Source: Kitasatospora mediocidica KCTC 9733 (lineage in GTDB: Bacteria; Actinomycetota; Actinomycetes; Streptomycetales; Streptomycetaceae). From it: 64,000 bases of DNA. Location: the NCBI RefSeq assembly GCF_000744225.1, contig NZ_JQLN01000001.1:434001-498000 (forward strand), written 5' to 3'. This document shows, piece by piece, positions 15,562 through 32,684 of this stretch; the first letter of the stretch is position 1; each line of letters opens with the position of its first letter. Under the pieces are notes generated by a model that was not told the origin of the DNA, did no database searches, and worked only from the letters and a program-made list of their open reading frames with translations. The translations under genes were made by a program, and so were the position numbers.

Positions 15562-15627
15562 CACAGCCGGGCCGGCCGCCGGGCGTTTCCGGTGGCCGGC
15601 CCGGCGGCCGCCGTGGGCGGCTCTCGC

Positions 15628-15969: not shown

Positions 15970-16046
15970 GACCGTGGCTCCTTCCGTACGGAACCGGCTG
16001 TCGTCCCCACTATGGCGTCACCACGGCCGTTCGGCGGGCGATCCGC

Positions 16047-16322
16047 TCAGTCATCGCCCGGCGAGTCCTGCTGCCCGATCACGCGAAGCTGCATCTCGGC
16101 CAGGTGCTCGCGCCAGCGCACGGCGGTCTCCTCCAGCGACGCCCCGCCGAACTCCGCGTCCACCCGCAGCGCGTCCACACACATCTCCACGAGGGTGAGC
16201 GCGATGGTCCGCAACTGCGGGGCCTCCATCGACCGCAGCAGCTCCTCGGTCCCGGGCTGGTCCCCGTTGAGCTGACAGGTGACCAGGGCGATCGTCATGA
16301 TGTCGTCGTCCAGCGTGGGCAT
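16047..16322 (-). CDS. Small hypothetical protein (91 aa)
   Basis: A small acidic protein starting at ATG 16322 behind a strong AAGGAGGT ribosome-binding site. It is largely helical (MTIALVTCQLNGDQPG, then LRTIALTLVEMCVDALRV) and ends acidic. It contains two Cys residues but no metal motif. It has no signal peptide or membrane segment. The strong ribosome-binding site argues that it is expressed. I do not recognise the family. Confidence 0.65.
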   Translation of the reverse strand: MPTLDDDIMTIALVTCQLNGDQPGTEELLRSMEAPQLRTIALTLVEMCVDALRVDAEFGGASLEETAVRWREHLAEMQLRVIGQQDSPGDD

Positions 16323-16420
16323 CGGCGGCACACCTCCTTGTCCGCTCCCCACTGTGCCAGTCCCCCTCCACCTCGCGCAGCAGCTCGCGGCACAACCGCC
16401 CTTCCGGGCACCCCCGGCGG

Positions 16421-17647
16421 TCAGTCGACCGGGGCCGGGACGTAGCGGTCGAGCAGGCCGATGGGCGAGTCGCAGGGCCAGCTGCAGAACCCGGCGCGTT
16501 CCACCTCCTCGTAGAACGGGACGCCGTCGTCGGCCCGGTGCGGGGCCCGGTCATGGTGGAGGTGGACGACGGGGTCGGCGTGGCGGTCCATCGGGCCGTA
16601 GCGCTCGGCGCGCCAGACGAAGTCCTGGTCCTCGCCGCCCCAGCCGGAGAAGCGCTCGTCCATCCCGCCGATCCGGCTGAACAGCGACTCGCGCAGCCAG
16701 ACGCAGCCGCCGGGCGGGCGGCGCAGGAACACCCCGCGCAGCCCGCTCTGGTCCACCGCCGCGCCGCCCTCCTGGCAGCGCCGGCGCACGGCGGCCCGGC
16801 TGGCCTGCGGGTCGAGGAAGAGCATGTCCTGGAACGGCCAGTGCGCCTGGGTACCCGGCTGCCGGAACCGGGCGACCGCCCGGGCGACGAAGTCGCGGTC
16901 GACCAGGATGTCGCCGTCCAGGACGCAGACCAGTTCAGCGGGCCTGGCGCCGTGCACCACACCGACGTTGACGGTCCAGGACTTGTTGAAGCGCCCGGGG
17001 CAGGGGGCGAACAGGTACTGGTCGCAGGCGTCCGCGAACAGCTCGCGCCAGCGCGGCCGTTCGTCGCTCTCGACGACGATCACCCGGTAGCGCTCGCGCG
17101 GGTGGCTCTGGTCGGCGAGGGCGGCCAGGACGGCGGCGAGGTTGCGCAGCCGTCCCTGCGCGTCGTCCTGCGCGCGGAACGGGATCACCACGGCGGCGTC
17201 CACCGGGTGCCGGCCGTGATGCGGCGGACGGGCGAGTTTGCCGAGCAGCTCGGCGGCCGTCAGCGCGGGGGCGTCTGGCGCCGGGAGCGGCGCGCCGGGC
17301 TTGGCCAGCAGCCGGGACAGGGTCTCCACCGTGGCTGTGGCGTCGGCCAGTTGGGCGACCAGGTGGTCGGGGTCGGGGTCCGCCAGCAGCGGCAGCAGGA
17401 GCTTGGCCAGCCGGTGCGCGGCGGCCGAGTCCTGTGGCGCGCCCGCGAGTTCGGCGGTTGCCGCGACCGCGCGCGGGTCGGCGAGGGCCGACAGCGCGCG
17501 GACGGTGGCGTGGTGGGCGTCGGCCGACCAGTCCCAGTAGTCCGGGGCGACGCCCCGTGCCACCGGGTCACCGGCCAGGATCACGCTGCTGACGGCGGCG
17601 GCGGCGAGCGCCTCGGGGTCGTACGGCCGGGCGGGCAGGTCGGACAC
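16421..17647 (-). CDS. Family 2 glycosyltransferase with galactosyltransferase-type C-terminal domain
   Basis: 408 residues. Residues ~1-150 form an Ala/Leu-rich helical extension. The GT-A domain starts at VDAAVVIPFRAQD and carries VCVLDGDILVD, the Asp-x-Asp-type metal site. GGCVWLRESLFSRIGGMDERF and GWGGEDQDFVWRAE follow, the latter typical of the GT27-like domain that provides the catalytic base. It lacks membrane segments and is probably a soluble cytoplasmic transferase of a hexose from a nucleotide sugar. It lies on the same strand as the HAD gene upstream but is separated by a hairpin, so it may not belong to the nitrosourea operon. Confidence 0.85.
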   Translation of the reverse strand: MSDLPARPYDPEALAAAAVSSVILAGDPVARGVAPDYWDWSADAHHATVRALSALADPRAVAATAELAGAPQDSAAAHRLAKLLLPLLADPDPDHLVAQLADATATVETLSRLLAKPGAPLPAPDAPALTAAELLGKLARPPHHGRHPVDAAVVIPFRAQDDAQGRLRNLAAVLAALADQSHPRERYRVIVVESDERPRWRELFADACDQYLFAPCPGRFNKSWTVNVGVVHGARPAELVCVLDGDILVDRDFVARAVARFRQPGTQAHWPFQDMLFLDPQASRAAVRRRCQEGGAAVDQSGLRGVFLRRPPGGCVWLRESLFSRIGGMDERFSGWGGEDQDFVWRAERYGPMDRHADPVVHLHHDRAPHRADDGVPFYEEVERAGFCSWPCDSPIGLLDRYVPAPVD

Positions 17648-17693
17648 GGCGGGTCTCCGGACGGGGTCGATGGTGGTGGTGGAGTGGGGTGTG

Positions 17694-17731
17694 CGGTGGC
17701 CCCCGGGTCGCTGGTCCGGGGGCCACCGCGG
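17694..17731. terminator. Hairpin after the HAD gene
   Basis: GCGGTGGCCCC and its complement GGGGCCACCGC, with an extra GG/CC pair and one bulge, form a long stem around an ~8-nt loop. It starts next to the stop of the minus-strand HAD gene (17734), and the glycosyltransferase gene begins below it at 17647. Confidence 0.65.
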
Positions 17732-17733
17732 GG

Positions 17734-18453
17734 TCAGCCGGTCTCTGCCGTACGCCAGTTGATCCCGGCGAGGTCGGCCACCACGATGTCGGCGGCGGCC
17801 AGTGCCCGCGCGTCGTGGGTGGTGGTGAGGCCGACGCAGCGCAGCCCGGCCGCCTTGGCCGCGGCGATGCCCGCCGGGGCGTCCTCGAAGGCGATCGCGT
17901 CGGCGGGCGAGACCCCGAGCGCGGCGATGCCGGCCAGGTAACCTTCGGGGTCGGGCTTGCCCGCCACCACGTCCTCGGCGGTGATCAGGACCTTGAACAG
18001 CCCGGCTCCGCCGACGTTCTCCAGCAGGTCGGTGGCGTGCTCGCGCAGGCCGGAGGTGACGACCGCGAGCGGGACGCCGGCCGCGTGCAGTCGGGCGATC
18101 AACTCGGCCGCGCCGGGCACCGGGTAGGGCGGCGGGCTGTCCGGGCCGTTCAGGTAGCCGCAGGCCTCCTCGAACAGCTCGTCGACGGAGTGCTCGCCGG
18201 GGAAGCGGTGCACGTGCTCGGCCAGCGACTCCTGGCCGCGCCGGCCGACGAAGCTCGCCAACAGCGCGTCGTCGCAGGGCAGTCCGTGCGTGGTGAAGAG
18301 CCTGGTCCAGGCGGCGCGGCTGCGGTGCTCGGTGGCGACGAGGGTGCCGTCCAGGTCGAACAGGGCTGCTCCGGCGCGCAGTTCGAGGCGCCGGGTCGGT
18401 TCGGTGGGGTGCGTGGGGTGCGTGGGGTGCGTGGGGTGCGTGGGCTGGGTCAT
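17734..18453 (-). CDS. HAD-family sugar phosphatase
   Basis: 239 residues. The HAD motifs are ALFDLDGTLVATE (motif I), VVTSGL (motif II), the Lys of KPDPEGYLAG (motif III) and IAFEDAPAGIAAAKAAGLRCVGL (motif IV), with a helical C1 cap between motifs I and II. This arrangement matches beta-phosphoglucomutase/sugar-phosphate phosphatases, so a small sugar phosphate is the likely substrate. It is the last gene in the minus-strand run MFS-amidase-HAD, with a 55-bp gap to the amidase. Streptozotocin carries a glucosamine, so dephosphorylation of a glucosamine-6-phosphate conjugate is plausible, but this is inference. The first ~20 residues are a THP repeat. Confidence 0.82.
   Translation of the reverse strand: MTQPTHPTHPTHPTHPTEPTRRLELRAGAALFDLDGTLVATEHRSRAAWTRLFTTHGLPCDDALLASFVGRRGQESLAEHVHRFPGEHSVDELFEEACGYLNGPDSPPPYPVPGAAELIARLHAAGVPLAVVTSGLREHATDLLENVGGAGLFKVLITAEDVVAGKPDPEGYLAGIAALGVSPADAIAFEDAPAGIAAAKAAGLRCVGLTTTHDARALAAADIVVADLAGINWRTAETG
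18406..18441. repeat. 9-bp tandem repeat, four copies
   Basis: GGGGTGCGT repeats exactly four times and encodes the Thr-His-Pro repeats at the N-terminus of the HAD phosphatase. It is probably prone to in-frame copy-number change. Confidence 0.9.
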
Positions 18454-18508
18454 CGGTGGTCGGTTCCTTGGGTGATCACGTGTCGGGTGCGGTGGACGGG
18501 GTCGGGGA

Positions 18509-19975
18509 TCAGGCCCCCAGCCGCAGGTCGCGGTAGGAGTCGGCCCACGGGAGCCGGGCCTCGATCGCTGCCGCGCCCCGGATCACCTTGACGTCCTGGT
18601 GGCGGCGGGCGGCCAGCTGGAGCCCGACCGGCACGCCGTTGGCGGCCCGGCCCACCGGCACGGACGCGGCGGGGCTGGCGATCAGGTTGAACGGGCTGGT
18701 GAGCGACCAGCCGACGTAGCGGTCCACCGGACGGCCGTCGATCTCGTGCGGCCCCACCGTGTCGCGGCCGCTGCCGTTGGGCACCCCGGTGATCCCGTTG
18801 ACCGGGCTGGCGATCAGGTCGTAGCGGTCGAAGAGGTCCTCGAAGGCGTCCAGGACCTGGGTGCGCATCAGGTCCTCCAGGCGGAAGTCGACCGCGCGGA
18901 ACGAGTCGCCGACCCGGACGCTGTCGATGTAGCCCGCCTCGATCGAACCGCTGTGGTCGCCGACCAGGTCGAGGCCCTGGCGCCGGGCGACCTCGGCGGA
19001 CTCCGCGTGGCAGAGCGAGAGGTAGCGCCGCCACATGGCGGTGAGCTCGTCGTGCGGGAACGGCAGCTTGAAGTCGACCTCCTCGACCACCGCGCCGGCC
19101 TCCACCAGGGCGGGCAGCGCGACGCGCACCAGCCGCTCGGCCTCCGCCGTCACCGGGTAGCCGCCCAGGTCGGGGCTGTAGGCCACCCGCAGGCCGGTCA
19201 GGTCACCGTCCAGCCCGTCGGCCAGCCGGTCGCCGACCGGGAAGGAGAACGGGTCGCGCGGGTGCGGGCCGGACATCACGTCCAGCCCGATCACCGCGTC
19301 CCGCACCGAGCGGGCCAGCGGGGCGTAGCAGACCATCGGGTTCAGCCGGCGGAACGCGTTCGGCTTGGCCGGCACGGCGACCCGGCCGAAGGTGGTCATC
19401 ATCGCGAAGACCCCGCAGAAGGCGGCCGGCACGCGCAACGAGCCGCCCGCGTCCGATCCCTGGGCCAGCGGCACCAGCCCGGCGGCGACGGCCGCGGCGC
19501 TGCCGCCGGAGGAGCCGCCCGCGTTCATGGCCAGGTTGAACGGCGTCGGCGTCGGGCCGAACAATGCGTTGTCGGTGGTCGCCTTGAAGCCGAACTCGGG
19601 GGTGTTGGTCTTGCCCACCACGATGGCGCCGGCCTGCTCCAGGCGCTCGACGCACAGGATCGTCTCGGTGGGCACGTCCTCGGCGAAGACCAGCGAGCCG
19701 CGGGTCATCCGGACTCCGGCGACCGGGTCGAGGTCCTTCACGGCGATCGGCACGCCGTGCAGCGGGCCCAGCTCGGCGCCGGACCGCACCGCCTGCTCGG
19801 CCTTCTTCGCGGCGTCCAGCGCCCGGTCCGCACAGACCGTCACCACCGCGTTCACGGTGGGGTTGAGCTGCTCGATCCGCGCCAGGCTGGCCTCGACCGC
19901 CTCCACCGGCGAGATCTCGCGCCGCCGGATCAGCTCGGCCAGTCGGTGGGCTGTCAGGTCGGTGGGCTCGGTCAT
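18509..19975 (-). CDS. Amidase-signature family hydrolase
   Basis: 488 residues from ATG 19975, preceded by AGGAGA. The Ser-cisSer-Lys triad is visible: Lys80 in PIAVKDLD, Ser155 in GGSSGGSAAA and Ser179 in GSDAGGSLRVPA. The length and order match GatA-like amidases. There is no GatB/GatC partner, so it is a stand-alone amidase, probably cytoplasmic. It lies 102 bp after the MFS gene and 55 bp before the HAD gene in one probable operon, divergent from the SznE/SznF genes. It may cleave an amide or urea-type intermediate or a protective acyl/aminoacyl group in the nitrosourea pathway; this role is inferred from position only. Confidence 0.87.
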   Translation of the reverse strand: MTEPTDLTAHRLAELIRRREISPVEAVEASLARIEQLNPTVNAVVTVCADRALDAAKKAEQAVRSGAELGPLHGVPIAVKDLDPVAGVRMTRGSLVFAEDVPTETILCVERLEQAGAIVVGKTNTPEFGFKATTDNALFGPTPTPFNLAMNAGGSSGGSAAAVAAGLVPLAQGSDAGGSLRVPAAFCGVFAMMTTFGRVAVPAKPNAFRRLNPMVCYAPLARSVRDAVIGLDVMSGPHPRDPFSFPVGDRLADGLDGDLTGLRVAYSPDLGGYPVTAEAERLVRVALPALVEAGAVVEEVDFKLPFPHDELTAMWRRYLSLCHAESAEVARRQGLDLVGDHSGSIEAGYIDSVRVGDSFRAVDFRLEDLMRTQVLDAFEDLFDRYDLIASPVNGITGVPNGSGRDTVGPHEIDGRPVDRYVGWSLTSPFNLIASPAASVPVGRAANGVPVGLQLAARRHQDVKVIRGAAAIEARLPWADSYRDLRLGA

Positions 19976-20077
19976 CCCTGGTTCTCCTAGCTGGGTCGCT
20001 CGGATGGGCACACTGCTGCTCTCTACGGGTGAACACCGCTCGGGCCGAAGTGGTTGCGGTGCGCGGCGCGACGCCGC

Positions 20078-21565
20078 TCAGTCGGTGCGACGGACGGCCT
20101 GCGCGGCCGCCAGGGTGGCGAGGGCGGCCACCGCGGCCAGCCCGAGCGCGGTGAGGGCGAACGCCGTGCCGGGCGCGTGCGCGACGCCGCGGCGCCCGGC
20201 CAGGGCGGGGTAGAGCGTGCCGAAGACCGCCACGCCCAGCACGCCCGCGAGTTGGGCGATGGTGTTGACCGAACCGCTCAGATCGGCGGCGTACCGGGGC
20301 GGCACCGCCAGCGTGAGCAGGGTCAGCAGCGAACTGAACGTGGTACCCAGGGCGAGCCCGCCGAAGCAGAGCACCACGGCCAGCGCGGCCGGCCGTGCGG
20401 CGCCGGCGGCCTGGAGCAGCGCGAGAGCGCCGTACGACAGCGTCAGCAGCAGGCCGCCCAGCACCGGCAGGCGCCGGCGCAGCGCGGCGGGCAGGCGCGG
20501 GAGCAGCGGGCCGGTGATACCGAAGCAGAGCACCCAGCCCAGCGGCACCAAGCCGGACTGCCAAGGGCTCAGACCGAGTTGCTGCTGAAGGTGGAGGGCG
20601 AGCAGGTACAGCAGGGAGAGGTAGGTCAGGGTGGTGCCGGCCTGGGCGAGCAACGCCCAGCGGACGGCGGGCAGGCTCAGCGGCCGCAGGTCCAACGCCG
20701 GGCGCCCGCCCCGCTCGGCCACCCGGCGTTCGGTCCGGGCGAAGGCGATCAGGCCGGGCACGGTGAGCGCGAGGACGGCCCAGATCCACCAGGGCCGGCC
20801 AAGGCCCGGGCCCAGCGTCAGCGGGAGCACGGCGGCGAGCGTGGAGCCGGCCAGCAGCGCGGTCCCGGCCAGGTCCAACCCGTCCTGCCCGGTGGGTGGT
20901 TCGGGCGCGGCGGCGGTCGGTCCGGCCGGGGTGCGGACGGTGCGCGGCAGCAGCCGGACGCCGACGGTCAGCGCGGCGATCCCGGCCGGCACGTTGATCA
21001 GGAAGGCGGCCCGCCAGCCGCTGCCCAGCAGGTCGGCGGAGACCAGCACGCCGCCGAGGATCTGGCCCAGCGCGGCGCTGCCGGACAGGGTCGCGGCGTA
21101 CAGGCCGACCGCCTGGCCCCGGCGCTCGGCCGGGAACCACTGGTGGATGCCGATCAGGACCGAGGGCACCATCAGCCCGGCCCCCACGCCCTGCACCAGG
21201 CGGGCGGCGATCAACGCCCCGGTGCCGGGGGCCAGTCCGCACAGCAGCGAAGCGGTGGTGAACAGCGCGAGGCCGCCCAGGAAGGCCCGGCGGACGCCGA
21301 GCCGGGCCGCCAGCCGGGCGCCGGTCACCAGCGTCAGCGCGTAGAGCAGCACGTATCCGGTCACCACGAGGGTGAGGTCGCCGGCCGAGGTGCCCAGGTC
21401 GGCGCGGATCGAGGGCGCGGCGACATTGGCCACCGCGGTGTCGATGTTGGCCATGGCCTGGCCCGAGAGCAGGATCAGCAGGAGCCAGGCGGCGGCCCGG
21501 GGCGGCGGGTGCACGCCCGCCCGGTCCACGGCGGGCGCGACGGCGGCGCGGGCCTGCTCGGTCAT
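20078..21565 (-). CDS. MFS drug exporter, DHA2 (14-TM) type
   Basis: 495 residues from ATG 21565 behind AAGGAG. Fourteen hydrophobic segments are visible. The signatures are MANIDTAVANVAAPSI (motif D1-like), LAARLGVRRAFLGGLALF (motif A) and ARLVQGVGAGLMVPSVL. GSGWRAAFLINVPAGIAAL is typical of the EmrB/QacA family. It is the first gene of a minus-strand run with the amidase and HAD gene. Its promoter region is shared with the nitrosourea genes, so it is the best candidate for export of the final product or self-resistance. Confidence 0.88.
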   Translation of the reverse strand: MTEQARAAVAPAVDRAGVHPPPRAAAWLLLILLSGQAMANIDTAVANVAAPSIRADLGTSAGDLTLVVTGYVLLYALTLVTGARLAARLGVRRAFLGGLALFTTASLLCGLAPGTGALIAARLVQGVGAGLMVPSVLIGIHQWFPAERRGQAVGLYAATLSGSAALGQILGGVLVSADLLGSGWRAAFLINVPAGIAALTVGVRLLPRTVRTPAGPTAAAPEPPTGQDGLDLAGTALLAGSTLAAVLPLTLGPGLGRPWWIWAVLALTVPGLIAFARTERRVAERGGRPALDLRPLSLPAVRWALLAQAGTTLTYLSLLYLLALHLQQQLGLSPWQSGLVPLGWVLCFGITGPLLPRLPAALRRRLPVLGGLLLTLSYGALALLQAAGAARPAALAVVLCFGGLALGTTFSSLLTLLTLAVPPRYAADLSGSVNTIAQLAGVLGVAVFGTLYPALAGRRGVAHAPGTAFALTALGLAAVAALATLAAAQAVRRTD

Positions 21566-21778
21566 GGTGCTCCTTGCCTGCGGGACCCTGCGGCGGCGCG
21601 CAGAGGCTGTCGTGTACACGTGTCCGCGCGGACGTGCGCGGGTATCGCAGGGTGGAACACCGGTGGGGTCCGTTCGGTTGCGCGACACCGCGACTCCGCC
21701 TGCGCGAGTACAACGTCGGCCCTTCACGTTCAAGCCTTCCGATCGGCTTGCCCGGCTGGCTATGGTCTGAACATCGCT

Positions 21779-21794
21779 AGTGGTCTAGACCTAG
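21779..21794. promoter_or_regulatory. DasR-like operator (dre) in the divergent promoter
   Basis: AGTGGTCTAGACCTAG matches 13 of 16 positions of the DasR-responsive element AGTGGTCTAGACCACT, and its core GGTCTAGACC is a perfect palindrome. It lies 22 bp before the start of the IS701-like gene and 214 bp before the MFS start. A half site (ATGGTCT) lies about 18 bp upstream. DasR is a GntR-family regulator sensing glucosamine-6-phosphate; another GntR protein could also use this site. Confidence 0.6.
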
Positions 21795-21815
21795 AGGGGA
21801 TAGGCAGCAGGAATC

Positions 21816-22910
21816 ATGGGCAACCCGGGTCTGCACATCGACGCCTCCTCCGAACTCGCCAAGCTGGTGGCTCCGCTCTTCAGTCGCTCCGAACCACGGC
21901 GGCAGGCTCTCGCCTACATCGACGGCCTGCTGAACGCCGCCGAACGCGGGAACAGCAGGCTGCTCGCGGAGCACGCCGGCGCCCCCAGCGTCTGGAGCAC
22001 TCAGCGCCTGCTCACCCGGGCCCGCTGGGACGCGGAGGAGCTGCGGGACCGGATCCGCGACTTCCTCGGTGAGCAACTGGGACGCCCGTCAGCCCAGTTG
22101 GTGCTGTGCCAGTACGAAACTCGGCGCACCGGCAACCAGGCGGTGGCCGTCGCGCGGCAGTCCACCGAACGCGACCCCCGCCCGCACAACAGCCAGGTCG
22201 CGGTCCTGCTCTGCTACGTCTCCCCTCACGGCAGCGCGCTGGTGGACCGGGAACTGTTCCTGCCGCCGGAGTGGGCCGAGGACCCGGCCCGCTGCGCCGA
22301 CGCCGGCATCCCCGAGGGGCAGACCCGCTACCGCTCCAAAGCCGCACTGGGACGCGAGATGGCCGAGCGCGCGTCGGCCGGCGGACTGCCCTTCTCCTGG
22401 GTGGTGGGCGGGCCGGGCTTCGGCCGGGACTCCGCCCTGCGCGACTGGCTGCGCCGGCGCCGGCTGCCCTACGTCCTCGAACTGCCGCCCGAGATCGCCC
22501 ATTTGACCCAACTGTCGTTCCGGGCGATCGAGGCCCCCCGCCCCGCCGGGATCAACTCGCCCCACCTGGAGGGCAGCTGGCAGGTGGTCGGCAGCGACAC
22601 CGCGCTCTCCCGACGGCTCTGGGGACCGCCCGCGGACGGCTTCCGGTACACCGTCCTGCTGAGCCGGAATACGGCCGGCGACGAGCACGTCCACCTGGTT
22701 CACGCGCCCGAACCGACCCCGCTGGTGTCCATGGCGTACGCGGTCCTCTCGCGCCGGACCGCCGATCTGACGATCCGTCGGGCCGAGGAGGACGCCGGCC
22801 TCGGCAGCCACCAGGTTCGGGGCTGGGTCGCCTGGTACCGGCACACCACCCTGGCGCTGGCGGCAGCGGCCGTCCGCGAGACCCGGCCGACGGCGCACCG
22901 AGCGCCCTGA
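21816..22910 (+). CDS. Degenerate IS701-like transposase protein in the biosynthetic cluster
   Basis: 364 residues collinear with IS701-family transposases over the whole length: YIDGLLNAAERGN, QRLLTRARWDAEELRDRIR, NSQVAVLLCYVSPHG, LPFSWVVGGPGFGRDSALRDWL and the C-terminal GLGSHQVRGWVAWYRHTTLAL. The first catalytic position, normally DDTGF, reads CQYET (98-102). The second, normally ADE, reads GGP (198-200). Both Asp residues are therefore lost, while the final E-containing helix is kept. No terminal inverted repeats were seen. The intact, undisrupted frame inside a biosynthetic locus suggests a domesticated protein, perhaps DNA-binding and regulatory, rather than a mobile element. It is the first plus-strand gene after the dre-like site. 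Confidence 0.8.
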   Translation: MGNPGLHIDASSELAKLVAPLFSRSEPRRQALAYIDGLLNAAERGNSRLLAEHAGAPSVWSTQRLLTRARWDAEELRDRIRDFLGEQLGRPSAQLVLCQYETRRTGNQAVAVARQSTERDPRPHNSQVAVLLCYVSPHGSALVDRELFLPPEWAEDPARCADAGIPEGQTRYRSKAALGREMAERASAGGLPFSWVVGGPGFGRDSALRDWLRRRRLPYVLELPPEIAHLTQLSFRAIEAPRPAGINSPHLEGSWQVVGSDTALSRRLWGPPADGFRYTVLLSRNTAGDEHVHLVHAPEPTPLVSMAYAVLSRRTADLTIRRAEEDAGLGSHQVRGWVAWYRHTTLALAAAAVRETRPTAHRAP

Positions 22911-23197
22911 GCACGGGAATTGGCGCCAAGTACCGTTCCCGGCATTGATCCCTTGCCGCCCGCCGATGCGGCTGGTGTACTCAAATCATCGGTGGACAAG
23001 CAACTCCTCTGTACACCGAGTCATTCACGCTGTGCTTTTCCGGACGTCCGCCGCCGTTCAGCACCATTCGTCAGGCACCTCCCGGCGCACCTGAGCCGGC
23101 ACAAATCGCACGGGTAATTCTCCGCATTGCGGCACTGCCCGACCCACCGAAACGGCCGCCGCAATTCCGCCCCCTTTTCAGGAGTGTTCACACCGCG

Positions 23198-24289
23198 ATG
23201 GCCGAGACCACCACTCATCTTGACGCAGTCGCCGACCCGCAGCCGAGCGCGGGGCACCGCACCGCGGCGGCCGACCCCGCCACCGACCCGCATGCCCGGA
23301 TCGCACTGGCGGGCCTGCACACCAGAGCCCAGGAGCTGGGCCGACTCGCCAACGTCACCATCGACGCGTTGGCCGATCCCGCCGCCGCCCTGAGGACCAC
23401 CGGCCCCGACTTCGCCGAGCTGGCCCGGGAGACCGTGCCTCGCTGGCACTTCGCCATGCTCAACGACCACGAGCGCAACGACGCGCTCGCGGTGGCGCTG
23501 GAGCGGGTGGTCCCGCCCGGCGCCACGGTGCTGGACATCGGCGCGGGCACCGGACTGCTCGCGATGATGGCCGTGCGGGCCGGTGCGAAGCACGTCTACA
23601 GCTGCGAGGCCAACCCGATGATGGCCGAGGTGGCCCGCCAGGTGGTCGCCGAGCACGGGTTCACCGACTCCGTCACCGTCCTCGCCAAGCGCTCGACGGA
23701 GCTGGTGGTCGGCCAGGACCTGCCCGACCGGGTGGACGCGGTGATCTCCGAGATCGTCGACTGCGGCCTGATCGGCGAGGGGCTGCTGCCCTCCGTCCGG
23801 CATGCACGGGCCGAACTCCTGGCCCCGGGCGGCGTCCTGCTGCCGCGCACCGCGCGGGTGCTCGGGGCGCTGGTGCAGAGCGAGGCCGCGGCCCGGCTCA
23901 ACCGGGTCGACAACGCCGGGGGCTTCGACGTCTCGCTGCTCAACACCTTCGCCACGGTGGGGCACTTCCCCGTCCGACTGCACACCTGGCCGCACCGCGT
24001 GCTCTCCGAGCCGGTCGAACTCGCCGCCTTCGACTGCGAGTCGGGGCCACTGGAGGCCGGCCGCCGGTCGCTGAGCGTGCCGGTGCACACCGCGGGCACC
24101 GCGCACATCCTGGTCGCCTGGTTCGAACTGGACCTGGGCGGCGGCGTGACCCTGCGCAACAGCCCGGAGAACGTCAGCTCGCACTGGATGCAGGCGATGA
24201 TCCCGCTCCCGACGCCCGTCGAGGTGACACCGCAGAAGCCTCTGGCCCTCGAACTCCACTGGAGCGAGACCAAGTTCGAACTGCGCTGA
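23198..24289 (+). CDS. sznE: PRMT-like L-arginine N-methyltransferase (SznE type)
   Basis: 363 residues with the protein-arginine-methyltransferase core. Motif I is VLDIGAGTGLL (111-121) and the acidic SAM ribose ligand is Glu137 in SCEANP. The double-E loop SEIVDCGLIGE has Glu185 and Glu194, and the THW-like loop is SSHW (327-330). It lacks a dimerisation arm typical of protein-specific PRMTs. In streptozotocin biosynthesis SznE methylates free L-arginine to N-omega-methyl-L-arginine, the substrate of SznF. The SznF homologue follows after 42 bp on the same strand, which makes this function very likely. The leader (about 20 residues) is Ala/Thr/Asp-rich. Confidence 0.9.
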   Translation: MAETTTHLDAVADPQPSAGHRTAAADPATDPHARIALAGLHTRAQELGRLANVTIDALADPAAALRTTGPDFAELARETVPRWHFAMLNDHERNDALAVALERVVPPGATVLDIGAGTGLLAMMAVRAGAKHVYSCEANPMMAEVARQVVAEHGFTDSVTVLAKRSTELVVGQDLPDRVDAVISEIVDCGLIGEGLLPSVRHARAELLAPGGVLLPRTARVLGALVQSEAAARLNRVDNAGGFDVSLLNTFATVGHFPVRLHTWPHRVLSEPVELAAFDCESGPLEAGRRSLSVPVHTAGTAHILVAWFELDLGGGVTLRNSPENVSSHWMQAMIPLPTPVEVTPQKPLALELHWSETKFELR

Positions 24290-24331
24290 CCGCGCGCCAC
24301 CCCCACTCCCCCGGATGGAAGGAACCCGATC

Positions 24332-25753
24332 GTGTCCCACACCCCGATCGCGCACGTGCCCTTCGCCCTGCACGGCGAGGAGCTGCGCCAGGCCGTCATC
24401 GCCTACGCGGCCAACCCCATCTACCGCGACAACGAGGAATGGGAGAACGCGGACAACCCGTACCACCGCCAGCTGCGTCCCCAGGTCCTGCCGCACCTGG
24501 ACTTCGACCGGGTGCCCGCCCGCGACCGCGCCCTGGAATACAGCAGCCTGGCCGCCCAGCGGATCCTCACCAGCATCTACGAAGCCGACCTGGTGTTCTT
24601 CCCCAAGGCCGGCCTGGGCGAGTTGAACGACGACTTCCGCGCCTACTACAGCCCCGGCAACCGGGCCCGCGGCGAGCTGATCCGCCCGGCACTGGAGCGC
24701 TTCGCCTTCGGCTTCCTCGACGAGGAGGTCGAGGTCAGCGGCACGTGGGACCAGGCGGGCCTGGAGACCTACCTGGAGTCGCTGGACGTCGACGCGACCG
24801 GCCACGCCTCGCTCGCGGAACAGGCGATCCTCAACTCCTCGGACCCGCAGCGGGCCGCCCGGATGTGGCTGATCCAGTTCGCCCCCGATTTCCTCTCCGA
24901 AGCCTCCCCGATGGCCCGGAACGTGCTCGGCTACTACGGCAACACGCAGTCGGAATGGTTCAAGATCGTCATTGACGAATACGGCTACGGCGTCCACGAC
25001 ACCAAGCACAGCCAGCTTTTCGAACGCACCCTGGAATCGGTCGGACTGAGCTCGGAACTCCACCGCTACTGGCAGTACTACCTCGTCAGCAGCCTGGCGA
25101 TGAACAACTACTTCCACTATCTCGGAAAGAACCACGAGCATTTCTTCCGCTACCTCGGCGCGCTGTACTACACGGAGAGCACGCTGGTCGATTTCTGCCG
25201 CCGGGCGACCTCACTGCTCGACAAGGTCTTCGAGGGGCAGGCCGACACCCGCTACTTCACCGAGCACGTGCACATCGACCAGCACCACGGCCGGATGGCC
25301 CTGGAGAAGCTCATCAAGCCGCTGATCGCCGAGCACGGCGACCAGATCATCCCCGAACTCGTGCGGGGCATCGAGGAGTTCCGGGCGCTGAGCACCCTGG
25401 CCGACGAGGACTTCGCCACCCAGATCGCCTGGATGGACGACGGCCCGCGCTACAAGGAACTGCACGGACCGGTCCACCGGGCGATCCTCGACGGCAAGGT
25501 CACCGCACCGGTCGCGCACATCGTCGAGCCGTTCGGCGAACTCTCCAACACCCACAGCCACGAGGGCGACGAGCTCTGCCACATCGTCTCCGGCACGATG
25601 CGCTTCGTCAGCGGCTTCAACTCCCACCAGATCCTGGAGGCCGGGGAGGGCACGGTGATCCAGCGCAACCGCCTGCACGGCGCGATCATCGAGTCGCACG
25701 AGTGCATCTACCAGATCCACTCCGTGGGGGACTACCAGGCATGCCTGTCCTGA
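24332..25753 (+). CDS. sznF: N-nitrosourea-forming diiron/cupin enzyme (SznF type)
   Basis: 473 residues from GTG 24332, behind AAGGAA. Residues ~1-130 are the N-terminal helical domain, ~130-380 the heme-oxygenase-like diiron domain and ~385-473 a cupin. The SznF diiron ligand positions are all present: Glu190 (FLSEASP), Glu216 (IDEYGYG), His226 (TKHS), Glu282 (YYTES), Asp316 and His319 (HIDQHHG), with His312 nearby. The cupin iron ligands are His408, His410 and His449. SznF hydroxylates N-methyl-L-arginine twice at the diiron site, then the cupin iron rearranges it to an N-hydroxy-N-methyl-N-nitroso-citrulline. The start of the Rieske gene overlaps its end. Confidence 0.94.
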   Translation: MSHTPIAHVPFALHGEELRQAVIAYAANPIYRDNEEWENADNPYHRQLRPQVLPHLDFDRVPARDRALEYSSLAAQRILTSIYEADLVFFPKAGLGELNDDFRAYYSPGNRARGELIRPALERFAFGFLDEEVEVSGTWDQAGLETYLESLDVDATGHASLAEQAILNSSDPQRAARMWLIQFAPDFLSEASPMARNVLGYYGNTQSEWFKIVIDEYGYGVHDTKHSQLFERTLESVGLSSELHRYWQYYLVSSLAMNNYFHYLGKNHEHFFRYLGALYYTESTLVDFCRRATSLLDKVFEGQADTRYFTEHVHIDQHHGRMALEKLIKPLIAEHGDQIIPELVRGIEEFRALSTLADEDFATQIAWMDDGPRYKELHGPVHRAILDGKVTAPVAHIVEPFGELSNTHSHEGDELCHIVSGTMRFVSGFNSHQILEAGEGTVIQRNRLHGAIIESHECIYQIHSVGDYQACLS

Positions 25754-26088
25754 CCTTCGCGGTGAGCGGGCCGGGCAACTGCGTCGAGGTGGGCGGTGTG
25801 CCGTACGTCTACGCCCGTACGGCACAGGGCGGTTCGGTGATCCGGGCGTCCTGCCCGCACCGCGGCGGGCCGCTGCACCTGGCGACCCCGGACCCCACCG
25901 GCCGGCAGCTGGTCTGCCCCTGGCACGAGCGCGGCACCTCGCTGGGCCGACTGCGCAAGGAGATCCCCGCGGTGCGCCGGGGATCGGTCGTCACCGCCGT
26001 GATCCCCGGCGATCCCGGCAGCACGGTGGTCCACCGGCACCTGCCGCTCTCGCCCGGGCTCTCCGTGGGCTGTCGGGAACAGTTCTGA
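25741..26088 (+). CDS. Rieske [2Fe-2S] protein
   Basis: 115 residues. It overlaps the end of the sznF-type gene by 13 bp, so translation is probably coupled. The cluster ligands are Cys38-x-His40 (SCPHRGGPL) and Cys59-x2-His62 (VCPWHERG), spaced as in small Rieske ferredoxins. No oxygenase domain is attached. It could deliver electrons to the diiron centre of the preceding enzyme or to a later oxidation. The C-terminal third lacks motifs. Confidence 0.88.
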   Translation: MPVLTFAVSGPGNCVEVGGVPYVYARTAQGGSVIRASCPHRGGPLHLATPDPTGRQLVCPWHERGTSLGRLRKEIPAVRRGSVVTAVIPGDPGSTVVHRHLPLSPGLSVGCREQF

Positions 26089-26166
26089 CGATCAGTCACC
26101 ATTGAATCCCTCCGGCCGGCCGCCGCACGCCCGGGCGGCCGGCCACCCACCGACAAAGGACTCGTC

Positions 26167-27510
26167 TTGGCCGTCCCCGACCCTCACCGACCCGCCGTCA
26201 TCGTCGACCCGTTCTCCTCCGGCGGGATGTACGCCCCGGCCTTCACCGCGGCCGGTGTGCCCGTGATCGCGGTCACCTCCTACCCCGAGGTGCCGGCCGC
26301 CTACGCGGACTCCTTCCACCCCGGCGACTTCACCCGCGTCCTCGCCTTCGACGGCGACGTGGAGCGCCTGGTCGCCGAACTGCGCCCGTACGCCCCGCGC
26401 TGCGTGCTGCCCGGCGCCGAGAGCGGCGTCGAACTCGCCGACCGGCTCACCGAGCGCCTGAACCCCAGGACCGTCAACACCCCGGCGCTGGCCACCGCCC
26501 GCCGGGACAAGGGCGCGATGGCCCTGGCCGTCCGGGCGGCCGGGCTGCCGGGGATCCGGCAGATCTGCACCGACGACCCCGACGAGGTCGAACGCTGGCT
26601 GGCGGACGCTCGGTTGGGCGGCCGGGACCTGGTGGTCAAGCCCCCCAGGAGCGGCAGCACCGACGGCGTCACCCGGGTGCCCGCCGGACAGGACTGGCGG
26701 GTGCCGTTCAACGCCCAGCTCGGCCGGACCAACCAGTGGCGCAACCTCAACGACCGCATGGTGGTTCAGGAATACGCCGTCGGCACCGAGTACGTGGTGG
26801 ACACCTTCAGCCACGGCGGCCGGCACACGGTGGCCGACGTCTGCCGCTACGGGAAGATCGACAACGGCGAGCAGATGGCCGTCTACGAGAGCCTGAACTG
26901 GGTCTCCCCCGAGGACCCGGCGGTCCCGGTCCTGACCGCCTACGCCGAGGCGGTGCTCGACGCGGTCGGCTTCCGGTACGGCGCCGCGCACATCGAGGTG
27001 ATGCTCACCGCCGAGGGCCCCCGGCTGGTCGAGGTCAACTCCCGCCCGCACGGCGGCGGCCACCCCGACTTCTGCCGCACGGCCACCGGCGACAGCCAAC
27101 TCCACCGCGCCGTCCGCTGGTTCACCGAGGGCAGCAGCATCCCCAAGAGCTATCAGCTGCTGCGCCAGATGACCGTGCTCTTCCTGATCGCGCGCAGCTC
27201 CGGCACCGTGCGCAACGTCGGCGCGCTGGCCGGGGTCGAGAAGCTGGCCTCGCACCACCGCTCCGCGGTCCGCCTCAAGGACGGCGACCGGGTGCACGCC
27301 ACCCGCGATCTGCTGGACACCCTGCAGCTGGGGTTCGTGGTCCTCAGCCACCGGGATGAGCGGCAACTCAACGAGGACATCGCCGCCGTCCGCCGGCTGG
27401 AGGGCGAAGTCGTCATCGAGGAGGAGACGTCAGAGAAGCGTGGTGAGGGCTTTGTCGAGGAGCCTGCCGTCACGGAGACCGCCGAAGCGGTGGCCTCCGA
27501 GCGCGGGTGA
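26167..27510 (+). CDS. ATP-grasp amide/peptide ligase
   Basis: 447 residues from TTG 26167, behind AAAGGA. A pre-ATP-grasp Rossmann-like domain (VIVDPFSSGGMYAPAF) is followed by the ATP-grasp core. Lys158 lies in DLVVKPPRSGSTDG, the adenine region is VVQEYAVGTEYVVD (199-212), and the Mg ligands are Glu289 and Asn291 in LVEVNSRPHGGG. ATP-grasp enzymes activate a carboxylate as acyl phosphate and couple it to an amine. Here it could attach the nitrosourea amino acid, or a carrier amino acid, to an amine such as glucosamine. The last ~25 residues are acidic and extended. It overlaps the following exporter gene by 4 bp. Confidence 0.88.
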   Translation: MAVPDPHRPAVIVDPFSSGGMYAPAFTAAGVPVIAVTSYPEVPAAYADSFHPGDFTRVLAFDGDVERLVAELRPYAPRCVLPGAESGVELADRLTERLNPRTVNTPALATARRDKGAMALAVRAAGLPGIRQICTDDPDEVERWLADARLGGRDLVVKPPRSGSTDGVTRVPAGQDWRVPFNAQLGRTNQWRNLNDRMVVQEYAVGTEYVVDTFSHGGRHTVADVCRYGKIDNGEQMAVYESLNWVSPEDPAVPVLTAYAEAVLDAVGFRYGAAHIEVMLTAEGPRLVEVNSRPHGGGHPDFCRTATGDSQLHRAVRWFTEGSSIPKSYQLLRQMTVLFLIARSSGTVRNVGALAGVEKLASHHRSAVRLKDGDRVHATRDLLDTLQLGFVVLSHRDERQLNEDIAAVRRLEGEVVIEEETSEKRGEGFVEEPAVTETAEAVASERG

Positions 27511-28196
27511 GCGGTTCCGCGGCTCTGGCCGCCGCGTGCTCCGCGACCTTCCTCGGCAGCTGCGCGGCGGTGATCGTCACGCCGGGCCCGGACGCGGTGC
27601 TGGTGACCCAGCTGCTGCGGCGCCACCGCCGCCGGGGCCCTGCGCTGGCCGCCGCGGCGGGCATGCTCACGGCCGGCGCCGGGCACGCGGCGCTGGCCGT
27701 CACCGGGGTCGCGGCCCTGCTGGTGGCCGTGCCCGCGCTGCTCACGGTGCTGCGGGTGGCCGGCGCCGCGCTGCTGCTGTGGTGGGGCGCCCGGGCGGTG
27801 CACGGCGCGCTGCGCCGGCAGGGCGCGACGGCGGCGGCCGACGCGGCGCCGGGACCGGCCGCCGGGACCGGCCGCTGCTACCTGCTCGGGCTGGCCTCCA
27901 CCGGCAGCAACCCCAAGGTCGGCCTCTTCCTGCTCGCGTTCCTGCCGCAGTTCGTCCCGCCGGGCGTCGCCCCCGCTCCCGCCATGACGCTGCTGGCCGG
28001 CGTCTACCTCACGATGGGCGCGATCTGGCTGAGCGTCCTGATCGAGTCCGGGCACCGCCTCGGCCGCTGGCTGGAGCGGCGCCGCTCGGTCCAGGCCGGG
28101 CCGCAGGCCTCGGCGCCGCGGGCGGCCCGGATCCTGGACGCGGTGGTCGGCGTGGTGTTCATCGCGCTGGCCGCCCGACTGCTTCTGGCGCCGTGA
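27507..28196 (+). CDS. LysE/RhtB-family exporter
   Basis: 229 residues from GTG 27507 with a GTGA overlap to the ATP-grasp gene. There are about six hydrophobic helices. The N-terminal signature is FLGSCAAVIVTPGPDAVLVTQLL, typical of the LysE superfamily, and the mid segment STGSNPKVGLFLLAFLPQFV is the second hallmark. LysE proteins export amino acids and derivatives, which fits the amino-acid-like nitrosourea produced by SznF. A role in export or detoxification of a pathway intermediate is therefore likely. Its 3' end lies 23 bp from the converging alkyltransferase gene. Confidence 0.85.
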   Translation: MSGSAALAAACSATFLGSCAAVIVTPGPDAVLVTQLLRRHRRRGPALAAAAGMLTAGAGHAALAVTGVAALLVAVPALLTVLRVAGAALLLWWGARAVHGALRRQGATAAADAAPGPAAGTGRCYLLGLASTGSNPKVGLFLLAFLPQFVPPGVAPAPAMTLLAGVYLTMGAIWLSVLIESGHRLGRWLERRRSVQAGPQASAPRAARILDAVVGVVFIALAARLLLAP

Positions 28197-28219
28197 GCGC
28201 CCCCGTGACGCTGCGGTGC

Positions 28220-28720
28220 TCAGACGGGCAGGCCCTCCAGCGCGAGCAGCAGGCGCTTGGCGTCGGTGCCGCCCGCGTAGCCCGTCAGCGAGCCGGTCGA
28301 GCCGACCACCCGGTGGCAGGGCACGACCACGCAGAGCGGGTTGGCGCCCAGCCGCGCGCCGACCGCCCGGGCCGCCGTCGGCCGGCCGATCGCCCGCGCC
28401 AACTCGCCGTACGTCGCGGTGCGTCCGTACCCGACCCCGTCGAGCGCCGCCAGCACCTGGCGCCCGAACGCGGTGGCCAGCCGCAGGTCCAGCGGCAGCG
28501 CGAACTCCCGCAGATCGCCCGCCAGATACCCGTCGATCTGCCGGGCGGCCCGGTCGAGCACGGGGTGCGAGGCGACGGTGGCCGGTGCGGCCAGCCCCGC
28601 GCGCGCCAGCACGTCCGCCCGGGCGGGGGCGAAGGCGCAGTGGACGAGGTGCGTCTCGGTGGCGATCAGCTCCAGGGTCCCGATCCGGGTCTCGTGGGCG
28701 ATGCGGAGGGTGTCGATCAT
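28220..28720 (-). CDS. ogt: O6-alkylguanine-DNA alkyltransferase
   Basis: 166 residues. The active-site motif is VVVPCHRVVGS, with acceptor Cys135 and His136. The arginine finger helix is ARAVGARLGANPL, and the C-terminal loop is GSLTGYAGGTDAKRLLL. The N-terminal domain (1-80) is reduced, as in bacterial Ogt. The protein removes methyl groups from O6-guanine in suicide fashion. N-methyl-N-nitrosoureas alkylate exactly that position, so its location against the nitrosourea cluster suggests self-resistance. It is the last gene of the sigma/Ada-like/Ogt run. Confidence 0.9.
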   Translation of the reverse strand: MIDTLRIAHETRIGTLELIATETHLVHCAFAPARADVLARAGLAAPATVASHPVLDRAARQIDGYLAGDLREFALPLDLRLATAFGRQVLAALDGVGYGRTATYGELARAIGRPTAARAVGARLGANPLCVVVPCHRVVGSTGSLTGYAGGTDAKRLLLALEGLPV

Positions 28721-28783
28721 TGCGGTCTCTTTCGGGTGGAACGGCGGGGAGGGCCGGAGGGTGCGGAGCGGGTGGAACAGCTT

Positions 28784-29644
28784 TCAGGCCGCCACCGGGC
28801 GGCAGCTCAGGCAGGCCCGGAAGCCGGCCGCCCCGGCCTGGTCCGCCGAGGCGAACGGCACCTCGTGCCGGGCGGTGATCCGGCGGGCGTGCGCACAGGT
28901 CGGATAGCAGAAGATCCGGGTGGTCCCGCTGCCGAGGAACCGGGCCCCGGCCCGCGCGAAGCGGTCGACGCGCTCCTCGTCGACGCCCTCGCGCTCCCGC
29001 AGCCGCTCGGCGAAGCCGGTGGGCAGCCCGCAGTCCGCCGGGGTCCCGTCGGGCAGGCTGAGCCGGTGGGTCGGGATCAGCGCCGGGGCCGGGTTGGCCC
29101 GCACCGCGCGCCACACCTCCTCGGGCGTCAGCGCGCCGCCGACCTCCCGGAGCAACCAGGCCGCGGGCCGCAGCTGACCGAACGGGATGGCCCGGACCGC
29201 CTCCAGCACCGCGATCTGCGTCGCGCCCAGCCGGCCGAACTCGTAGCGCAGCACTCTGTCCCGCCCGGTGCGCAGCGCGCCCAGCAGCCCCGGCGGCGGC
29301 TTGGTCACCGCCACCGCGGACCGGCCGGTCCTGGTCCGGTACGCCGTCTCGAACTCCTCCGCCGTCCCGAACCACTCCACCGCCGCCGACCCGGTCACCA
29401 TGCCGCGCCCGTGCGCCACGTACAGCGCGCCGACCGGGCTCGGCACTGCCAGATAGCGGTCGTAGCGGTGCGCGGGGACGCCCGCGCGCTCCAGGATCAG
29501 GGCCGCGAACCCGGCCGGCGCGGGCTCGCGCAGCTCCGCCAGCCCGGCGACCAGCCCGGTCGCCGGCCCCGCGTCGTACGCCTCGGGCATCGTGCGGCCC
29601 AGCGGTGACCCGTTCACCCGCCGGCCCTCGTCCGACCCGTTCAT
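28784..29644 (-). CDS. Ada-like protein: inactive alkyltransferase domain plus C-terminal methylphosphotriester Zn domain
   Basis: 286 residues from ATG 29644 behind GAGGAGG. Residues ~60-205 resemble an Ogt fold: a RYLAVPSPVGALYVAHG start, FETAYRTRTGR, GATQIAVLEAVRAIPFGQ and then LIPTHRLSLPDG. Thr192 replaces the catalytic Cys, so base repair should be dead. Residues ~235-286 match the Ada N-terminal domain: GTTRIFCYPTCAHARR then GFRACLSCRP, with Zn ligands Cys246, Cys250, Cys278 and Cys281. Cys246 corresponds to the methylphosphotriester acceptor of Ada. The domain order is thus swapped relative to E. coli Ada. The start overlaps the sigma factor stop as ATGA. Confidence 0.82.
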   Translation of the reverse strand: MNGSDEGRRVNGSPLGRTMPEAYDAGPATGLVAGLAELREPAPAGFAALILERAGVPAHRYDRYLAVPSPVGALYVAHGRGMVTGSAAVEWFGTAEEFETAYRTRTGRSAVAVTKPPPGLLGALRTGRDRVLRYEFGRLGATQIAVLEAVRAIPFGQLRPAAWLLREVGGALTPEEVWRAVRANPAPALIPTHRLSLPDGTPADCGLPTGFAERLREREGVDEERVDRFARAGARFLGSGTTRIFCYPTCAHARRITARHEVPFASADQAGAAGFRACLSCRPVAA

Positions 29645-30267
29645 CCCGTCACCTCCTCGCTGTACCGACCCTCTCCCCGACCGGACGTACCGGACCCGCC
29701 GGCGTCGGCGGCCAGCTGCGGCGCCGCCCGCAGGGCCGCCAGCCCGCGCGACACCTGGGCCTTCACCGTGCCCACCGGGCTGTCCAGGATCTGCGCGACC
29801 TCCTGGTAGCTCAGCTCGCCGATGTGCCGCAGCACCACCGGCAGCCGGTGGTGCTCCGGCAGGTCGGCCAGCGCCAGCACCAGCCGGTCGCGCCGCGTCC
29901 CGTCCAGCGCCCGCTGCTCGGGCCCGGGCGCGCGATCCGCCGGCTCGACGTCGCTCACCTGCACCCCGTCCGCCGTCGCCGGCCGGCGGGCCGCCGTACG
30001 GACGTGGTTGCGCCACACGTTGGCGGCGATGGTCAGCAGCCAGGCCCGGGGCTGGAGCTCCCGGCGCCGCTGCGGCGAGTAGTCGCGCAGCGCGCTGTAG
30101 GCGCGCAGGAAGGTGTCCTGTCCCAGGTCGTCGGCCTCCCGGGCGGACCCCGACAACCGCAGCAGCACCGCGCGGACGGCGCCGGCCTGGGTGCGGACGA
30201 GTTCGGTGAACCCGTCGTCCAGGTCGGTCGCCAGCAGCTCGGTGATCGGTGGGGGCATCTCGTCCAT
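29641..30267 (-). CDS. ECF-type RNA polymerase sigma factor
   Basis: 208 residues. Sigma region 2 is GDLGQ-like (READDLGQDTFLRAYSALRDY, then PRAWLLTIAANVWRNHVR). Region 4 is LPEHHRLPVVLRHIGELSYQEVAQILDSPVGTVKAQVSRGLAAL. There is no region 3 and no anti-sigma gene next to it. Its stop overlaps the start of the Ada-like gene, so the two are translationally coupled. It may direct transcription of the repair genes in response to alkylated DNA or of other targets. ATG 30267 follows GAGGTAGGTG; GTG 30270 is an alternative. Confidence 0.88.
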   Translation of the reverse strand: MDEMPPPITELLATDLDDGFTELVRTQAGAVRAVLLRLSGSAREADDLGQDTFLRAYSALRDYSPQRRRELQPRAWLLTIAANVWRNHVRTAARRPATADGVQVSDVEPADRAPGPEQRALDGTRRDRLVLALADLPEHHRLPVVLRHIGELSYQEVAQILDSPVGTVKAQVSRGLAALRAAPQLAADAGGSGTSGRGEGRYSEEVTG

Positions 30268-30332
30268 CACCTACCTCAACACCGCCGTCCCCGAACCGGT
30301 TGCAGCACCAGGAGCGGGTGGCAGCGGGCAGG

Positions 30333-30767: not shown

Positions 30768-30878
30768 GGTCGCTCCTCCTCGTCGTGCGGGCCGGTGCTG
30801 TGCGCGGCCCGCGGTAGATCCGGGCGCTGCCGGTTCTCGGCTGGGGATGCGTCCTGGGGTCCTCCGTGTGCGGACCAT

Positions 30879-30894: not shown

Positions 30895-30929
30895 CCTCTT
30901 TGTCCACATCAGGACGGTGTGCTCACCAC

Positions 30930-32585: not shown

Positions 32586-32684
32586 GGCTGCCTCCCGGTC
32601 CGGTCGCTCCCCCGTCCAGCCTGCACCTGGCCGCGCGACCGTCGCCACCGCGACGGCCGCGTGTGCGGCCCCGGCTCTCCGCTG

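Follow-up and report, generated by a model that had tools for sequence, protein, structure and literature searches.

We analyzed a stretch of 64,000 nucleotides from Kitasatospora mediocidica KCTC 9733 (contig NZ_JQLN01000001.1, positions 434,001 to 498,000; hereafter the window, with positions counted from its first letter), and found a predicted gene cluster for an N-nitrosourea of the streptozotocin type at positions 16421-30270 (13.9 kb), the features of which are listed in Table 1. An operon that begins with an SznE-like arginine methyltransferase gene (PRMT) and the gene for an SznF-like N-nitrosourea synthase is divergent from an operon for an MFS exporter, an amidase, a HAD phosphatase and a glycosyltransferase (GT7C), and a gene resembling IS701 transposases lies between the two. 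Directly past lysE, on the opposite strand, are the genes for an O6-methylguanine-DNA methyltransferase (MGMT), an AGT-Ada fusion and a sigma factor. A preliminary description had recognized the adjacent PRMT-like and SznF-type genes, the Rieske, ATP-grasp and LysE genes that follow with overlaps or short gaps, and the divergent MFS-amidase-HAD operon, and the coordinates and domain matches agree with all of these; the Rieske gene, for example, overlaps sznF by 13 bp if it starts at the likely ATG at 25741. Its bounds (17734-28196) were too short, because the GT7C gene, which adds to the divergent operon, and the repair and regulator genes extend the cluster on both sides; the IS701-like gene was likewise absent from its list. 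The genes that it named have a GC content at third codon positions of the coding type (open reading frame check). No tRNA gene was found in the 64-kb window, no Rfam family reached the gathering threshold in 14000-34000, and no Padloc family was matched by the IS701-like, GT7C or ATP-grasp protein.

Table 1. Predicted genes and DNA sites of the cluster (positions in the window)
Feature	Position	Strand	Basis or remark
GT-A glycosyltransferase, Glyco_transf_7C domain (GT7C)	16421-17647	-	Pfam; DGD and WGGED motifs
HAD-family phosphatase, beta-phosphoglucomutase-like	17734-18453	-	Domain matches
Amidase-signature hydrolase	18509-19975	-	GGSSGG motif; likely ATG 19975, reading frame open to 20011
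DHA2-type MFS exporter (predicted)	20078-21565	-	Domain matches; likely ATG 21565, reading frame open to 21733
DasR (dre)-like palindrome TGGTCTAGACCT	21781-21792		No strand; 23 bp before IS701-like gene
IS701-family transposase homologue, catalytic residues lost; predicted cluster regulator	21816-22910	+	NCBIfam IS701, 236.5 bits (cut-off 150)
AAGTACCGTTC-N13-CTTGCC element, predicted operator	22928-22957	+	270 bp before PRMT gene
SznE-like arginine N-methyltransferase (PRMT-like)	23198-24289	+	Pfam; SE-x8-E and SHW motifs
SznF-like N-nitrosourea synthase (predicted)	24332-25753	+	Diiron HDO domain and cupin
Rieske [2Fe-2S] ferredoxin, predicted electron donor	25741-26088	+	CPH-x18-CPWH; reading frame from 25702, likely ATG 25741
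ATP-grasp L-amino-acid ligase (predicted)	26167-27510	+	Domain matches; nearest solved relative PDB 30vh
LysE-type exporter (predicted)	27507-28196	+	Domain matches; 4-bp overlap with ATP-grasp gene
O6-methylguanine-DNA methyltransferase (MGMT), predicted self-resistance	28220-28720	-	PCHR acceptor intact
AGT-Ada fusion	28784-29644	-	AGT acceptor Cys lost (PTHR); Ada zinc domain with 4 Cys
ECF-type sigma factor	29641-30270	-	4-bp overlap with AGT-Ada gene

We aligned the SznF-like protein with SznF of Streptomyces achromogenes (PDB 6m9r) and obtained a full-length match (E = 2.3e-234) in which 338 of 471 residues are identical (72%). The protein has a Haem_oxygenas_2 domain (4.2e-33) and a Cupin_2 match (2e-5, 24.6 bits) that lies below the Pfam cut-off of 27.2. 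Residues E189 and D222 are conserved, and the SE-x8-E loop and SHW motif of the PRMT-like protein are hallmarks of that family. In the alignment to 6m9r, all of the diiron ligands (E215, H225, E281, H311, D315 and H318) and the cupin residues (H407, H409, H448 and Y459) are kept; the essential residues of SznF are those listed in an excerpt of PMC11705231. Catalytic residues are also conserved in the MGMT, amidase and Rieske proteins of the cluster, and the ATP-grasp enzyme is closest to the solved L-amino-acid ligase PDB 30vh (E = 4.6e-49).

The nearest proteins to the SznF of the window are 93% identical and bear Kitasatospora names. We then scanned 394 Streptomycetaceae genomes for SznF and, likewise, for GT7C, AGT-Ada and the IS701-like protein; these scans scored few candidates per genome, so that absences are soft. 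SznF homologues, described beforehand as rare, proved to be not very rare, since sznF was found at at least 59% identity in 15 of the 394 genomes and a 2024 paper (PMC10849742, in excerpt) counts SznF and 135 further proteins in szn-type clusters. Among plasmid relatives of SznF (13 records), none exceeded 42% identity. Ten more SznF-like proteins of Streptomycetaceae (L023-L032; 26-30% identity), which were left out of the comparison below, possibly belong to other N-nitroso or diazeniumdiolate pathways. A distant SznF-PRMT pair (L022, G261 C15:195867-197132; SznF 39% identical to 6m9r) represents another kind of SznF cluster, and its neighbourhood contained no match to the ATP-grasp, LysE or repair genes of the window.

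We compared 19 sznF loci (684 kb in total), namely the window and 18 others (L002, L004, L005 and fifteen genomes; L001 is the same contig as G011, and L003 the same as G044). Four of them (L002, L004, G044 and G353) end at contig or stretch ends, and genes missing from these should not be read as lost. All but one of the 19 loci combine PRMT, SznF and Rieske genes, the exception being G019, which has no PRMT match; the G261 locus is distant (PRMT, SznF and Rieske at 37-44%, SznF at 37%). The ATP-grasp ligase is present in 17 loci and LysE in 16. Three szn-type loci (G262, G190 and G371), whose SznF is 87-89% identical to 6m9r, are, among the loci compared, the nearest relatives of the S. achromogenes szn cluster (BGC0002313 and BGC0002294) and represent it here; they carry a second ATP-grasp gene (c8), an alpha/beta hydrolase gene (c10) and a PF09859 oxygenase gene. 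The window-type loci are the window itself, Kitasatospora sp. SolWspMP-SS2h (G011), Streptomyces durbertensis (L002), Streptomyces sp. CBMA156 (G044), Streptomyces sp. SID8352 (L004) and G189, and they have GT7C, HAD, amidase and MFS genes instead (51-78% identity). The other five share with the window the same genes, with GT7C in the same place, the divergent layout and two DNA sites (AAGTACYG and GGTCTAGACC); their SznF is 81-83% identical to that of the window, and the amidase and MFS genes are in swapped order. Two families of small open reading frames (c20 and c21), found opposite the MFS gene in three window-type loci, look spurious. A third sort of locus (G152, G368, G232 and G353) has the IS701-like gene and lacks GT7C and HAD, with an amidase gene in the first three. 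In the SznF tree, the window-type and szn-type proteins each formed one branch (SH-aLRT 99), as did the third sort (82), and the SznF of the window fell outside the streptozotocin clade; this was a quick tree with no bootstraps, and the test set each group against the remaining labelled rows only.

The preliminary description suggested comparing gene content and order with the szn cluster. The PRMT, SznF, Rieske, L-amino-acid ligase, LysE, MGMT, AGT-Ada and sigma genes are common to both. The second ATP-grasp, hydrolase and oxygenase genes are absent from the window, which adds GT7C, HAD, amidase, MFS, the IS701-like gene and the two DNA sites.

We considered the possibility that the amidase-MFS-HAD-GT7C set belongs to a separate pathway and is a mere neighbour of the nitrosourea operon. 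GT7C at at least 71% identity was found in five of the 394 genomes, all of which carry sznF (hypergeometric test, 4e-8), and the set abuts sznF in four of these five; when all genomes or records seen to hold the set are counted, it abuts the nitrosourea operon in six of seven. These results argue against a separate pathway. However, 0.9 Mb separates the set from sznF in the szn-type genome G262, where it borders on, and is divergent from, another HDO operon. Since the set stands so far from sznF in that genome, it can travel, and its role in nitrosourea formation is one that we infer. A separate pathway keeps a small but real chance. In that G262 region (L147:1538-10527), the operon contains an HDO gene resembling CADD and 4-aminobenzoate synthase (PabS) and, as read by eye, genes for a Cys/Met-metabolism-like pyridoxal phosphate enzyme and for GNAT-like and MFS-like proteins; it is a possible second pathway using the same module. 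The preliminary description asked whether the flanking genes also occur in genomes without sznF, and the answer differs by gene: GT7C (at least 71%) was confined to genomes with sznF, one of them with the 0.9-Mb separation, whereas AGT-Ada was found in 12 genomes with no sznF match. The idea that the whole GT7C family is specific to sznF clusters was rejected, because homologues of 35-57% identity occur in 22 further genomes, none of which has an sznF match.

We further considered the possibility that the cluster makes streptozotocin itself, with the missing genes supplied from elsewhere and the amidase-glycosyltransferase module incidental. The core genes and the MGMT, AGT-Ada and sigma genes are the same as in the szn-type loci, one of which (G262) also owns the amidase-MFS-HAD-GT7C set, in agreement with this explanation. 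However, the three szn-type loci all carry c8 and c10, and no counterpart of either was seen in the six window-type loci over the length available for each; the c8 query gave matches of only 28-30%, at the other ATP-grasp gene. The PF09859 oxygenase had no match in the window, although homologues lie nearby in G011 and G189, and the position of the window SznF outside the streptozotocin clade also disagrees with this explanation, which we regard as unlikely. The only PF09859 sequences found elsewhere in the genome of the window are two short fragments (L180 and L181, G000 C5:2266550-2266708), possibly what is left of the oxygenase gene retained by szn-type clusters. Because amidase, MFS, HAD and glycosyltransferase genes stand in the window in place of the second ATP-grasp, hydrolase and 2-oxoglutarate (2OG) oxygenase genes, the cluster likely yields a conjugate different from streptozotocin. 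For GT7C, AF2 predicts (pLDDT 88.5) a general GT-A fold similar to those of chondroitin synthase, B4GalT and GalNAc-T, which fits a nucleoside diphosphate (NDP)-hexose donor and names neither donor nor acceptor.

The gene between the two operons encodes a homologue of IS701 transposases (NF033540, DDE_5) that appears to have lost catalysis. As a reference we used 30 IS701 proteins of the genus, in which two Asp columns are invariant (30/30) and a Glu is present in 29 of 30; the cluster proteins are 35-40% identical to this set (30% for L143; best of three queries). At these three columns the window protein has C98, G199 and D317. Across the ten cluster copies, the first catalytic Asp is missing throughout, the second persists in G353 only, and no copy retains the Glu. 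The gene is nonetheless full-length in every locus that holds the whole gene (the G353 copy runs off the end), and it sits on the PRMT strand just before PRMT in 10 of the 10 loci holding it. A set of 107 homologues from the database, counting the query, contains 21 that have lost two or more of these residues; one is a fragment (P0219), and the 20 full-length dead proteins form one clade (FastTree support 99). In the 394 genomes, the dead form was found in seven at E = 1e-62 or better, and all seven copies lie inside the sznF cluster (hypergeometric test, 2e-11); the G353 copy, which is 39% identical, falls below this cut. The pairwise ratio of nonsynonymous to synonymous substitutions (dN/dS) was 0.15-0.36 in six of seven pairs, and the gene shows purifying selection. 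The AF2 model (pLDDT 82.6) matched the Tn5 transposase-DNA complex (E = 5.2e-10, probability 1.00, TM-scores 0.58/0.47), and an RNase H-like transposase fold is accordingly a model prediction for this protein. The same genome contains a second IS701-like gene (L063, G000 C1:200064-201140), which keeps only the second catalytic Asp and has its sole AGTACYG match inside the gene; dead IS701 proteins may be more widespread.

An ordinary insertion sequence, or a pseudogene decaying by chance inside the cluster, would explain why the relatives are annotated as IS701 transposases in databases and why the protein scores above the IS701 cut-off. It would not explain the loss of catalytic residues from a full-length gene with dN/dS mostly below 0.4, the single clade, the constant position before PRMT or the restriction to sznF clusters among the 394 genomes. 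Moreover, only one AGTACYG site lies near the gene in the window and no pair of AGTACYG ends surrounds it, although other types of IS701 end exist. On these grounds an ordinary insertion was rejected, and chance presence is quite improbable. We consider it likely, from sequence comparison, that the IS701-like protein is a domesticated transposase that regulates the cluster.

We next examined the DNA on either side of the IS701-like gene. AAGTACYG occurs 233-342 bp before the PRMT match in all ten loci with the IS701-like gene; in the nine loci without it, no AAGTACYG was found on that strand within 5 kb upstream of PRMT (G019 has no PRMT). In the gaps between the two genes (those of L002 and G353 begin slightly inside the IS701-like gene), AAGTAC is the sole 6-mer common to all ten loci and AAGTACCG the sole 8-mer present in nine, and none of 200 dinucleotide shuffles gave a word common to the gaps as observed. 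The bipartite form of Table 1 occurs once in the 8.68-Mb genome, and G152, G368 and G232 have a second AAGTACYG copy that points to the amidase operon, 2.3 kb away. Multi-copy IS701 elements end in CTAGTACTGCAA in three genomes, whereas a fourth element does not, and TAGTACYG is found at both ends in 10 of 30 IS701 loci. The AGTACYG core shared with IS701 ends suggests that a relic transposon end may serve as the operator. On the other side of the gene, the 684 kb contain six instances of the core GGTCTAGACC, and every one of them immediately precedes the IS701-like gene in a window-type locus (6/6). The window palindrome AGTGGTCTAGACCTAG (21779-21794) has one mismatch to the inner 12-mer of the DasR responsive element (dre) consensus, A(G/C)TGGTCTAGACCA(G/C)T, and DasR-bound sites with the exact core GGTCTAGACC, such as tcaggtctagacctgt and tgtggtctagacctct, appear in an excerpt of PMC4398421. 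We accordingly read the palindrome from its sequence as a putative DasR site.

Several observations weigh against this interpretation of the gene and its sites. The third triad position of the window protein is Asp, still an acid, and the three columns are presumed to be the DDE triad from their invariance together with the DDE and YREK motifs. The window-G011 pair has a dN/dS of 0.64, and the loci are related by descent, so that the shuffle, Fisher and hypergeometric tests overstate independence. AAGTACYG has 32 matches in the 684 kb, compared with 12.6 expected from mononucleotide shuffling, and in five loci matches fall within sznF on the opposite strand; the position weight matrix was built from the same sites that it finds. 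TAGTACYG is not at both ends in 20 of the 30 IS701 loci, a few of which are cut by contig ends, and 2.5% of the other 8-mers in the same gaps match IS701 ends as well; the resemblance is modest, and for this reason we only infer the relic-end step. As for the palindrome, the 8.68-Mb genome holds three copies of TGGTCTAGACCT, two of them away from this cluster, and the window site matches only 13 of the 16 positions of the published dre consensus, differing at three.

N-Methyl-N-nitrosoureas methylate guanine O6 and phosphates, and the MGMT, AGT-Ada and sigma genes are therefore the set that a producer of such an agent would need. MGMT with its PCHR motif is present in 15 of the 19 loci, and the motif is kept in all 16 aligned copies. 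The AGT-Ada and sigma genes are present in 12 loci, or 13 with G044, whose copies sit on contig C376. The AGT acceptor Cys is replaced by Thr, Ala, Val or Ser in 9 of the 13 sznF-linked AGT-Ada copies, compared with 1 of 12 copies from genomes with no sznF match (Fisher test, 0.004, uncorrected for kinship), whereas the four Ada cysteines are kept in 25 of 25 copies. The window fusion shares the zinc domain and all four of its Cys with E. coli Ada, from which it differs in its reversed order (AGT first) and in the acceptor Cys, which has become Thr; no AraC-type helix-turn-helix domain was matched in it at E = 0.001. The AGT-Ada protein is thus likely, judging from these residues, a methyl-phosphotriester sensor beside MGMT as the true repair enzyme, with the sigma factor as output. 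In the literature, self-resistance to streptozotocin is attributed to homologues of AlkB and AGT (PMC9040887), and the two streptozotocin clusters are described with two MGMT genes, a 2OG oxygenase gene and a sigma gene (PMC12224297). AGT-Ada as a marker of nitrosourea clusters only was rejected, since 12 of the 23 genomes with the gene have no sznF match, a point that also weighs against our overall interpretation. In those 12 (L102, L104, L105, L107-L113, L115 and L116) the acceptor Cys is intact in 11, and the genes may be markers of further clusters, with DNA-alkylating or diazo products.

The last alternative, in which the protein would act like the GrbD-type homologues of SznF (PMC10849742) and supply a metallophore with a diazeniumdiolate (graminine), has a very remote chance and was rejected, given the adjacent PRMT, the 72% identity to SznF, the O6-methylguanine repair genes pointing to a methylating agent, and the absence of any NRPS or PKS domain match in the genes scanned (12877-34043).

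The identity and ligands of SznF, the PRMT motifs, the conserved gene order and the adjacent O6-methylguanine repair genes support the original proposal of a streptozotocin-type N-nitrosourea cluster, possibly for another conjugate. Our interpretation as a whole, to which we assign a probability of about 0.7 from sequence comparison, is that this is an szn-type nitrosourea cluster in which a methylating warhead is likely ligated and glycosylated, the producer likely protects itself by repair, and a dead IS701 protein likely regulates expression. By analogy with the known SznE/SznF pair, L-arginine would be converted to N-omega-methyl-L-arginine and then to N-delta-hydroxy-N-omega-methyl-N-omega-nitroso-L-citrulline, with the Rieske protein as the likely electron donor for SznF. 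From their families alone, the L-amino-acid ligase would couple the warhead with another unit, GT7C and HAD would form a glycoside and take off a phosphate, the amidase would serve for trimming, and the MFS and LysE proteins for export. O6-Methylguanine repair likely protects the producer, and its induction would follow when the sigma factor and AGT-Ada detect methyl phosphotriesters in DNA. As conservation suggests, the dead transposase may control PRMT-sznF transcription by binding AAGTACYG, possibly a remnant IS701 end, and the DasR-like site before its gene would allow aminosugar supply to gate the cluster. DasR responds to N-acetylglucosamine, which fits a pathway possibly using an aminosugar. 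More tentatively, and at somewhat less than even odds, we suggest that a transposase was domesticated once inside a genotoxin cluster: it would have lost its triad and kept end binding, a captured end (AAGTACYG) would have become the operator, and its own promoter would have come under DasR and aminosugar control, giving a nutrient-gated switch paired with an Ada-like sensor that gave up its repair site.

As natural DNA methylators, N-methyl-N-nitrosoureas are unusual, and they also form a class of clinical drugs. According to a 2024 review (PMC11705231, in excerpt), SznF/StzF is the only enzyme identified that builds the N-nitrosourea group. A second type of cluster with other tailoring genes would offer a way to ask how the warhead is transferred and what partners it takes, and its product could be sought in public strains that are known by name. 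The AGT-Ada series forms a natural experiment on alkylation sensing, in which producers are often without the acceptor Cys and the sensor domain is kept. We regard the dead IS701 gene as the new and more surprising part of the cluster; since gene, site and cluster occur together, it lends itself to clean tests. Among the literature matches listed (titles and beginnings of abstracts), there were transposase-derived transcription factors of plants and animals and no report of a transposase-derived regulator in a bacterial antibiotic cluster, which is not proof of absence. If the more tentative scenario of a single domestication is true, production of a DNA-methylating agent would be governed here by a nutrient-gated switch derived from a transposon.

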